Assembly: GCA_947463785.1 (NCBI GenBank)
Contig: CANHRG010000001.1
Location: forward strand, 248,001 to 312,000
Source: Sphingobacteriaceae bacterium
GTDB lineage: Bacteria > Bacteroidota > Bacteroidia > Sphingobacteriales > Sphingobacteriaceae
DNA length: 64,000 nucleotides
Direction: 5' to 3'
Part shown: positions 32,077-58,207 of the stretch, one piece after another
Position numbering within the stretch: the stretch's first letter is position 1
Layout of the letters: every line of letters starts with the position of its first letter
Program-made: the position numbers and the translations under genes
Notes under the pieces: model-generated
What the model was told of the DNA's origin: nothing
The model's input: only the letters and a program-made list of their open reading frames with translations
The model's database searches: none

Positions 32077-32556
32077 TTAGTAGCTTAATTGGATTTGCCT
32101 ACGTATGCTTTCCTCCAAAGAAATGAAGGTTTCGGTACGCTGAATTCCGGGTACGGCTTGAATGCCGTCATTCAGTACTTTACGTAAATGATTGGTATCG
32201 CGGCAAACAATTTTGGCAAACATGCTATAAGCCCCTGTGCAGTAATGCAACTCTACAATTTCTTTCACTTGTTTTAAGCGTTCAACCGCATCGTTGTACT
32301 GGGATCCTTTTTGTAGGAAAATGCCCAAGAAGGCGCAAATGTCGTAGCCAATTTTTTGAGCGTTAATATTGAGTTGTGAACCCTGAATAATTCCCAGTTC
32401 TTGCATCTTTTTCATTCTGACATGCACCGTTCCCCCTGAAACAATCAATTTTTTGGCGATTTCGGTATACGGCATGGTGGCATCTGTCATTAACAAGGAT
32501 AAAATATCCTTGTCCAGATTATCAATTTCTAAATTTTGAGTCTTTTTTTCCGACAT
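32077..32556 (-). CDS. Lrp/AsnC family transcriptional regulator
   Basis: 159 residues. Helix-turn-helix near the N-terminus (LDKDILSLLMTDATMPYTEIAKKL, then IVSGGTVHVRMKKM), followed by the ligand-binding RAM domain (CAFLGIFLQKG, HYCTGAYSMFAKIVCRD, ETFISLEESI). Such proteins bind amino acids and regulate metabolism genes; the effector is unknown. The upstream gap contains an A/T-rich palindrome (32580-32603) and the promoter of a divergent small RNA, so it could control itself, the RNA, or both. Confidence 0.9.
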   Translation of the reverse strand: MSEKKTQNLEIDNLDKDILSLLMTDATMPYTEIAKKLIVSGGTVHVRMKKMQELGIIQGSQLNINAQKIGYDICAFLGIFLQKGSQYNDAVERLKQVKEIVELHYCTGAYSMFAKIVCRDTNHLRKVLNDGIQAVPGIQRTETFISLEESIRRQIQLSY

Positions 32557-32630: not shown

Positions 32631-32661
32631 TTGCAATAAAAATGCGCTTATAGTATCTTTG
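32631..32661 (+). promoter_or_regulatory. Promoter of the tRNA-like small RNA
   Basis: TTG (32631-32633), 20 nt, TATCTTTG (32654-32661): a full consensus Bacteroidota promoter with no protein gene downstream on this strand for over 4 kb. Predicted start near 32666. Confidence 0.75.
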
Positions 32662-32665
32662 TAGC

Positions 32666-32826
32666 AGAAATTTATACAGATTTCTACATGTGGCAAGCTT
32701 AAACAAAGTAGGTAAGCGTTACACAACGCCGGGGTTCGATTCCTCATCCACAGCAACCTTATTCTATTAGGTTTATAATTGGTTAGTTTATAAAAGCTCC
32801 TGACGCCCGTCTAGGGGCTTTTTTCA
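32666..32826 (+). ncRNA. Small RNA with tRNA-like acceptor, D and T arms but a reduced anticodon region
   Basis: A complete unit of about 160 nt between a consensus promoter and a terminator. It opens with hairpin AGAAAT/ATTTCT (32666-32685). From 32688 the geometry follows a tRNA: acceptor strand with TGTGG (32689-32693) pairing to CCACA (32748-32752), two linker bases, D stem GCTT/AAGC (32697-32700, 32714-32717) enclosing GTAGGT, and T arm GGGG-TTCGATT-CCTC (32731-32745) abutting the acceptor. Only 13 nt lie between D and T stems (a tRNA needs about 22), forming GCGTT-ACAC-AACGC instead of an anticodon arm. Hairpin AACCT/AGGTT follows. It could be a novel RNA or a decayed tRNA. Confidence 0.55.
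32792..32826 (+). terminator. Terminator of the tRNA-like RNA
   Basis: AAAAGCTCC and GGGGCTTTT pair (one G-T) around an 13-nt loop, followed by T residues. It has no coding gene to terminate on the plus strand. Confidence 0.8.
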
Positions 32827-32845
32827 TTTTTAGATTAGAGGCATA

Positions 32846-32876
32846 AAAAAAGCCACCCTGAATGGGGTGGCTTTTT
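32846..32876. terminator. Terminator after the amidohydrolase pair
   Basis: AAAAAGCCACCC and GGGTGGCTTTTT arms around a 6-nt loop; 17 nt past the stop codon of the leftward gene. Confidence 0.9.
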
Positions 32877-32892
32877 CAATTGGTGTGTATGT

Positions 32893-58075: not shown

Positions 58076-58143
58076 AGTATTCCAGTTCTAAATAAAAACA
58101 AAATAAAATGCAGAAAAATGGACTATTAAAGGAAGTGTAATTT

Positions 58144-58195
58144 AGTTTTTTAGCACTTTTTTTAACGTGGTTGCAATCAACGCAAATCGATCCAC
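58144..58195 (-). promoter_or_regulatory. SAM-II riboswitch aptamer upstream of metK
   Basis: In minus-strand RNA the conserved core appears in order and spacing: GUGG (58192-58195), GAUUU, 6 nt, AUUGCAA, CCAC (closing P1), GUUAAA, then GCUAAAAA exactly 16 nt after GCAA, as I recall the consensus. Pairing of the pseudoknot is preserved with changed bases (G-C and U-A at positions where the classic sequence has C-G and C-G). It starts a few bases after the predicted transcription start and ends 68 nt before metK. The family is best known from Alphaproteobacteria. Confidence 0.88.
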
Positions 58196-58207
58196 TTTTT
58201 TGCACTG

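Follow-up and report, generated by a model that had tools for sequence, protein, structure and literature searches.

The small RNA encoded between an asnC-type regulator gene and an amidohydrolase pair in the stretch of Sphingobacteriaceae DNA analysed here (64,000 nucleotides, hereafter the window) is a reduced, still-constrained and genus-specific form of a conserved, structured and AsnC-linked tRNA-like RNA family found across the class Bacteroidia. It is not an ordinary tRNA in decay, nor is it an intact carrier. Judging from sequence comparison, we give somewhat better than an even chance to what we regard as the best explanation, namely that the full-length RNA of the relatives serves as a dedicated amino-acid carrier, of which the window RNA would be the reduced form.

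The window locus and its conservation within the genus

The asnC-type gene and the amidohydrolase pair flank a short plus-strand transcription unit with no protein gene between them (Table 1). The promoter, the strong U-tailed terminator and the hairpin 5' of the tRNA-like part, all described in an earlier note made from the sequence, were recovered at this locus, and the five-pair acceptor, the mini-hairpin and the T arm of that description are present in the minimum-energy fold and kept within the genus. The fold was moderately better than those of shuffled sequences (z = -2.1 for 161 nt and -0.7 for the 72-nt core), and the case for the window RNA therefore rests on conservation. ARAGORN and Rfam gave no match to the RNA at the locus: Rfam, under curated and relaxed thresholds, returned merely terminator-like chance matches, and no tRNA match appeared at E up to 10. 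Another strong hairpin, bordered by runs of A and of T, follows at 32844-32877 and probably terminates transcription in both directions, serving the amidohydrolase gene as well. The sole Rfam match above the cut-off in the window was a SAM-II riboswitch (58140-58201, minus strand, 58 bits).

Table 1. Coordinates of the small RNA transcription unit, its parts and its divergent neighbour in the window
Feature	Position	Strand	Basis or remark
asnC-type (Lrp/AsnC family) regulator gene	32077..32556	-	Divergent from the RNA; Pfam AsnC_trans_reg and HTH_AsnC-type
Promoter TTG-N20-TATCTTTG, Bacteroidota-type	32631..32661	+	Sequence motif
5' leader hairpin AGAAATTT-ATAC-AGATTTCT	32666..32685	+	Fold
Reduced tRNA-like domain	32689..32753	+	Fold, genus comparison, orthology to the long-form RNA
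Acceptor strands	32689-32695 and 32746-32752	+	Five pairs, 32689-32693 with 32748-32752
Middle hairpin GCGTT-ACAC-AACGC	32716-32729	+	Minimum-energy fold
T arm GGGG-TTCGATT-CCTC	32731-32745	+	Minimum-energy fold
Discriminator G73	32753	+	
Linker CAACCTTATTCTATTA	32754..32769	+	CAACCTTATTC invariant in the genus
3' module (box, then terminator)	32770-32825	+	
17-nt box GGTTTATAATTGGTTAG, opening the 3' module	32770..32786	+	One copy per genome in the window's genus
Terminator hairpin, C-rich loop and U tract	32792..32825	+	Fold, genus comparison

The neighbouring regulator, previously read as Lrp, scored 179 bits against the NCBIfam AsnC model (cut-off 227) and 59 bits against Lrp. The seven neighbour proteins scored across the class reached 149-187 bits with the AsnC model, below the same cut-off, and about 42-84 bits with the other models of the superfamily. 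By these profile scores, the neighbour of the RNA is AsnC-like, not Lrp.

The other five genomes of the genus also have the RNA at this place (6/6 in total), with the acceptor, the middle hairpin and the T stem rebuilt from different bases; the promoter and the terminator are kept in all six as well. Pair 5 of the acceptor is G-C or A-U, and so is pair 7, which is mismatched in the window; the middle hairpin occurs as GCGTT/AACGC, AGGGT/ACCCT or GAAAAG/CTTTTC. The linker, the box and the terminator loop are nearly invariant; the loop GACGCCCGTC itself does not vary, and the outer stem of the terminator covaries. The 5' leader hairpin differs in sequence between species and showed no conservation. 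The 4-bp D stem proposed earlier did not survive this comparison, as sister species carry AGTTTTTAACAGGTGAG or ATTTTAACAGGTAAG at that position and share the D-loop-like AACAGG core alone. The suggestion of a conserved tRNA mimic held in spirit, given retention in every genus genome with pairing-preserving changes.

The 3' module, in which the 17-nt box precedes a terminator whose loop is C-rich, has a wider distribution of its own. Sphingobacteriaceae genomes have as many as about 20 copies each, behind many different promoters (L010, L011, L015, L029 and others), most of them elsewhere without a tRNA-like part, while each genome of the window's genus holds exactly one copy, at this locus. 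The module was confined to Sphingobacteriaceae in a 60-genome sample (a backwards control pattern gave 0-2), and the box was absent from 23 genomes of other families. The multicopy module is likely an undescribed paralogous sRNA family. The FopS/GibS sRNAs of Bacteroides (RF04319, PMC11697453) are also multicopy and carry a short single-stranded box and a terminator hairpin. The 3' module shares with them its copy number, the order of conserved box and terminator hairpin, and a Bacteroidota promoter, but here it is fused to a tRNA-like domain, and the resemblance is one of layout. Identity with FopS was rejected, as the module copy searched gave no match to the Rfam FopS model; on the window that model gave 19.6 bits (cut-off 56), covering the downstream hairpins only.

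These features bear on the present role of the window form, which might be a processing platform in which the acceptor/T-arm hairpin, as a minimal RNase P type substrate, releases a FopS-like 3' sRNA. The acceptor and T arm are exactly what survives in the genus, the 3' module is the most conserved stretch, and Sphingobacterium-like genera keep only the promoter and the 3' module at the locus. Against this, the module mostly occurs elsewhere without a tRNA-like part, the T loop of one genus locus (L006) has changed to TTCAACT, and the window carries two mismatches at the base of its acceptor. We consider such a platform possible but rather unlikely; taken as what the window form does today, it would be compatible with descent from a full-length carrier.

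Full-length relatives across Bacteroidia

A long form of about 110-150 nt lies in the same intergenic region at no fewer than 120 loci, often as tandem duplicates, in records titled as Sphingobacteriaceae genera (Pedobacter, Mucilaginibacter, Arcticibacter, Hufsiella, Desertivirga, Pelobium, Solitalea and others), Sphingobacteriales or Bacteroidetes bins. Among the Sphingobacteriaceae loci listed, asnC is divergent at 99 of the 108 with enough sequence, and its start usually lies about 173 nt from the D arm. Some long-form loci also have the amidohydrolase on the far side, as in the window. The shared intergenic region, the divergent asnC and, at times, the same amidohydrolase indicate that the window RNA is orthologous to the long form. 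The promoter motif TTTG-N17-21-TANNTTTG precedes 101 of 113 long-form relatives, compared with 7 of 2260 shuffles.

Covariance model R1, built from ten sequences, reached well beyond Sphingobacteriaceae. When a second model (R2) was run on 345 Bacteroidia genomes, two clearly separated score groups were obtained, the first comprising matches of about 110-200 nt with E < 1e-16 in 59 genomes of 19 families, and the second comprising matches of 80-90 nt, mostly near 55-62 bits. Such weaker matches in the window genome were ordinary tRNA genes, with tRNA-Leu the best. In a phylum-wide sample of 198 genomes, no group-one match fell outside the class Bacteroidia. The gene is divergent from an asnC orthologue at 15 of 19 loci in other families and at 22 of 31 loci in another set, which overlaps the first in part and takes in Sphingobacteriaceae. 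The relatives search and covariance modelling, both envisaged in the earlier note, yielded orthologues as well as compensatory changes.

Across 40 diverse sequences, 97.5% of cells were paired (51-59% in slid controls), and 18 pairs had changed on both sides, in 120 such cells compared with 31 in shuffles; the alignment behind these counts was fitted to the model and some bias is expected, yet the contrast with the controls is large. Covariation supports a cloverleaf with a 7-bp acceptor, a D arm of Leu type, a 5-bp anticodon arm with a 7-nt loop, and a T arm, in which U33 is mostly present and G18-G19 and the T loop are kept. Sphingobacteriaceae have variable regions of 32-76 nt, and those of other families reach 128 nt. 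Outside Sphingobacteriaceae the anticodon stem covaries; in the Sphingobacteriaceae set, which was mostly gathered with a pattern covering that arm, it is invariant and has a fixed U-U mismatch. The lack of an anticodon arm, reported earlier, is true of the window form but not of a general or primitive state, the loss being specific to the window's genus.

The family appears to be absent from Rfam, ARAGORN called no tRNA at the long-form loci, and the Rfam tRNA model gave 34.3 bits for one long form under permissive filters only. No earlier description was found in the open-access papers searched, and the RNA family is apparently undescribed. It may have been overlooked because it is seemingly missing from Rfam and passed over by a standard tRNA finder.

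The Leu-type D arm and a weak match of model R1 to ordinary tRNA-Leu could point to a decayed tRNA-Leu gene in the window, and decay of an ordinary tRNA had been the plain alternative of the earlier note. This reading is extremely unlikely. Compensatory changes occur within the genus, the tRNA-Leu genes of the window genome are located elsewhere, and the relatives hold at the same locus a conserved full-length RNA distinct from tRNA-Leu, which refutes decay as a complete explanation. Simple decay is wrong because this non-ordinary RNA exists apart from the normal tRNA-Leu and tRNA-Asp genes. The long form resembles tRNA-Leu and other class II tRNAs (RF00005) in its Leu-type D arm, long variable arm and normal T arm; it differs from them in having G73 in place of A73, a GUC anticodon, a mostly pyrimidine position 37, the variable-region lengths given above, its own promoter beside asnC and a negative ARAGORN result. 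LeuRS mimicry, suggested by the D arm, was discarded on account of the G73 discriminator (not A73) and of a neighbour that resembles AsnC and not Lrp. Like tmRNA, the RNA has a tRNA-like acceptor, a D-like region and a T arm without ordinary decoding; no tmRNA match was returned by ARAGORN or Rfam, and there was no sign of a tag reading frame.

Several loci depart from the common arrangement. Two tRNA-like units stand in tandem at L062, L066, L093 and other Pedobacter or Mucilaginibacter loci, and the downstream unit can have the acceptor TGTTGGG/CCCAACA, a compensatory change, together with a longer variable arm. Extra copies occur near a riboflavin synthase-like or HscA-like gene (L032, L035, L036, L038, L039, L041, L068, L096), with up to five in tandem at a spacing of about 370 nt. 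In genome G016, the tRNA-like gene looks split (L266 and L013; contig C10, 326.9 kb and 356 kb), the 5' half adjoining asnC and the 3' half standing some 29 kb away within that contig, an arrangement that would fit the integration of an element into the gene. The Sphingobacteriaceae anticodon arm contains ACACCTCCTT (e.g., L033 near 1525-1535), which we take to be the 16S rRNA 3' tail (anti-Shine-Dalgarno); mimicry of this tail as a general function was dropped, since other families show CCCTC, CCGCC or CCAGC.

Identity bases and co-occurrence with GatB

Ordinary tRNA-Asp has G1-C72, and a decoding tRNA is expected to carry a purine at position 37. Identity bases of the long form were counted in three alignments that included its most diverged members. 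At the acceptor end, U1-A72 was found in 163/164 sequences, G2-C71 in 164/164 and G73 in 166/166; in the anticodon loop, G34 was found in 162/165, U35 and C36 in 165/165 and C38 in 164/166, and position 37 was mostly T or C, with G in a minority and A once, in place of the canonical purine. The strong determinants of AspRS are G73, G34, U35, C36 and C38 (PMC9976931), and all are near-invariant in the roughly 165 long forms. Bacterial GatCAB recognises U1-A72 on tRNA-Asn (PMC4206432), the pair that the long forms carry. Against a carrier, U1-A72 stands throughout in place of G1-C72, a pair said to aid the placing of the acceptor end in E. coli AspRS, and G10 is kept in Sphingobacteriaceae and absent from most other families. 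The AspRS determinants together with the GatCAB pair thus make the long form a chimera of Asp anticodon and Asn acceptor, and on these bases it is predicted to be charged with Asp and then amidated to Asn.

In tRNA-dependent asparagine synthesis, a non-discriminating AspRS and GatCAB act on tRNA-Asn, as in Bdellovibrio, Deinococcus and Staphylococcus (PMC4206432). The long form would use the same order of enzymes and shares U1-A72 and G73 with that substrate, but it has the Asp anticodon GUC, a separate gene and a very long variable arm. Owing to the GUC anticodon, an ordinary discriminating AspRS could charge it.

The same anticodon, together with the usual U33, the kept G18-G19 and T loop, and a score of 34 bits with the Rfam tRNA model, would also suit a working tRNA-Asp isoacceptor that has an unusual variable arm and functions on the ribosome, or an Asp donor for non-ribosomal transfer. 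We regard either as very unlikely, given the predominant pyrimidine (sometimes G, A once) at position 37 and the fixed U-U mismatch in the Sphingobacteriaceae anticodon stem; moreover, an Asp-RNA with U1-A72 would be a substrate for GatCAB, and the window genome already has an ordinary tRNA-Asp(GUC). The long form does not look fit for decoding. In the window genome, the only tRNAs starting with U1 are tRNA-Asn, tRNA-Gln and one initiator-like tRNA-Met.

Were GatCAB to act on the RNA, every genome carrying the RNA would have to encode the enzyme. In this test, made after the hypothesis had been formed and with GatCAB scored by GatB, GatB was present in 40/40 RNA-bearing genomes compared with 18/40 others (p = 8e-9) and, when counted by family, in 17/17 with the RNA compared with 17/29 others (p = 0.0015). 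Within Sphingobacteriaceae, GatB was found in 11/11 genomes with the RNA and 0/7 others, two of the seven belonging to the window's genus. In the AsnC tree, the five other GatB-less genera form one clade and the window's genus another, unplaced one, so the GatB-less Sphingobacteriaceae represent about two loss events. The tRNA-like part is gone from the five-genus clade, in which three genera keep just the promoter and 3' module at the locus and the other two keep nothing. GatB is likewise missing from the window genome, where the RNA lacks the anticodon arm, the variable arm and the conserved D stem and retains G73 alone of the strong AspRS determinants; across the window's genus, U1-A72 remains in 3/6 genomes and G2-C71 in 1/6. 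Also counting against a carrier, 18 GatB-bearing genomes are without the RNA.

A second prediction, that RNA-bearing genomes would lack an asparagine synthetase and GatB-less genomes would have one, was not cleanly borne out. An AsnB-superfamily protein exceeded the cut-off in 33/40 RNA-bearing genomes and none did in 7/40, while AsnA was rare (4/80 genomes, including 2/40 of the RNA-bearing ones). Eight AsnB-type proteins from RNA-bearers scored 261-293 bits, compared with a cut-off of 499 for housekeeping AsnB. In the window genome the prediction failed, as neither AsnA nor AsnB was found over the cut-off. Synthetase presence is no clean test because the AsnB superfamily holds many polysaccharide-type paralogues, and these results neither prove nor refute the carrier idea. 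The window genome is reduced (1.8 Mb) and, with GatB, AsnA and AsnB all missing at these cut-offs, the organism is probably an asparagine auxotroph.

Proposed function and significance

The direct basis for a carrier is the structure, homology, synteny, near-invariant identity bases and GatB co-occurrence described above. That the RNA is charged and amidated, that it stays off the ribosome, that AsnC controls it and that the window form now serves as a small RNA are our inferences. AspRS would charge the full-length RNA with Asp, as proposed on account of the GUC anticodon, C38 and G73, and GatCAB would amidate the RNA-bound Asp to Asn, as proposed because the acceptor opens with U1-A72 as in tRNA-Asn, in contrast to the G1-C72 of tRNA-Asp. 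Asn placed at Asp codons would be harmful were the carrier to decode, and the very long variable arm and mostly non-purine base 37 may keep it off the ribosome. The AsnC-type regulator probably couples transcription of the RNA to asparagine availability. In the window's genus, with GatB gone and the anticodon and variable arms lost, the RNA would no longer be chargeable by the AspRS/GatCAB route. The acceptor/T-arm hairpin, the 17-nt box and the terminator most likely persist as a small RNA, in which the tRNA-like top half is most likely a processing or stabilising element.

The full-length RNA could instead be a sensor or regulator which, charged with Asp and perhaps amidated, reports Asp/Asn or GatCAB status and regulates asnC or other genes. 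Its tight linkage to an AsnC-type gene at a conserved intergenic distance, its own promoter and, in Sphingobacteriaceae, its fusion to a 3' module resembling an independent sRNA would all agree with such a role. We nevertheless think it unlikely: tandem or extra copies occur away from asnC, and a carrier explains the identity bases and the dependence on GatB equally well.

Taken as a whole, the proposal is of an undescribed, non-decoding class of transfer RNA across Bacteroidia, an Asp-anticodon/Asn-acceptor chimera through which a discriminating AspRS would feed GatCAB for asparagine under AsnC control, and which would have been dismantled with the loss of GatCAB in the window's genus, its top half being re-used in a small RNA. 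We advance this fuller account tentatively, with a little less than even confidence. If true, it would mean that bacteria own a tRNA for metabolism instead of decoding, and it would show how asparagine could be made on RNA without mistranslation in cells that have an ordinary AspRS, and account for the retention of this RNA next to an asparagine-type regulator in many Bacteroidia that have GatCAB. The window's genus would then offer a natural experiment on the fate of such an RNA once its enzyme has been lost.
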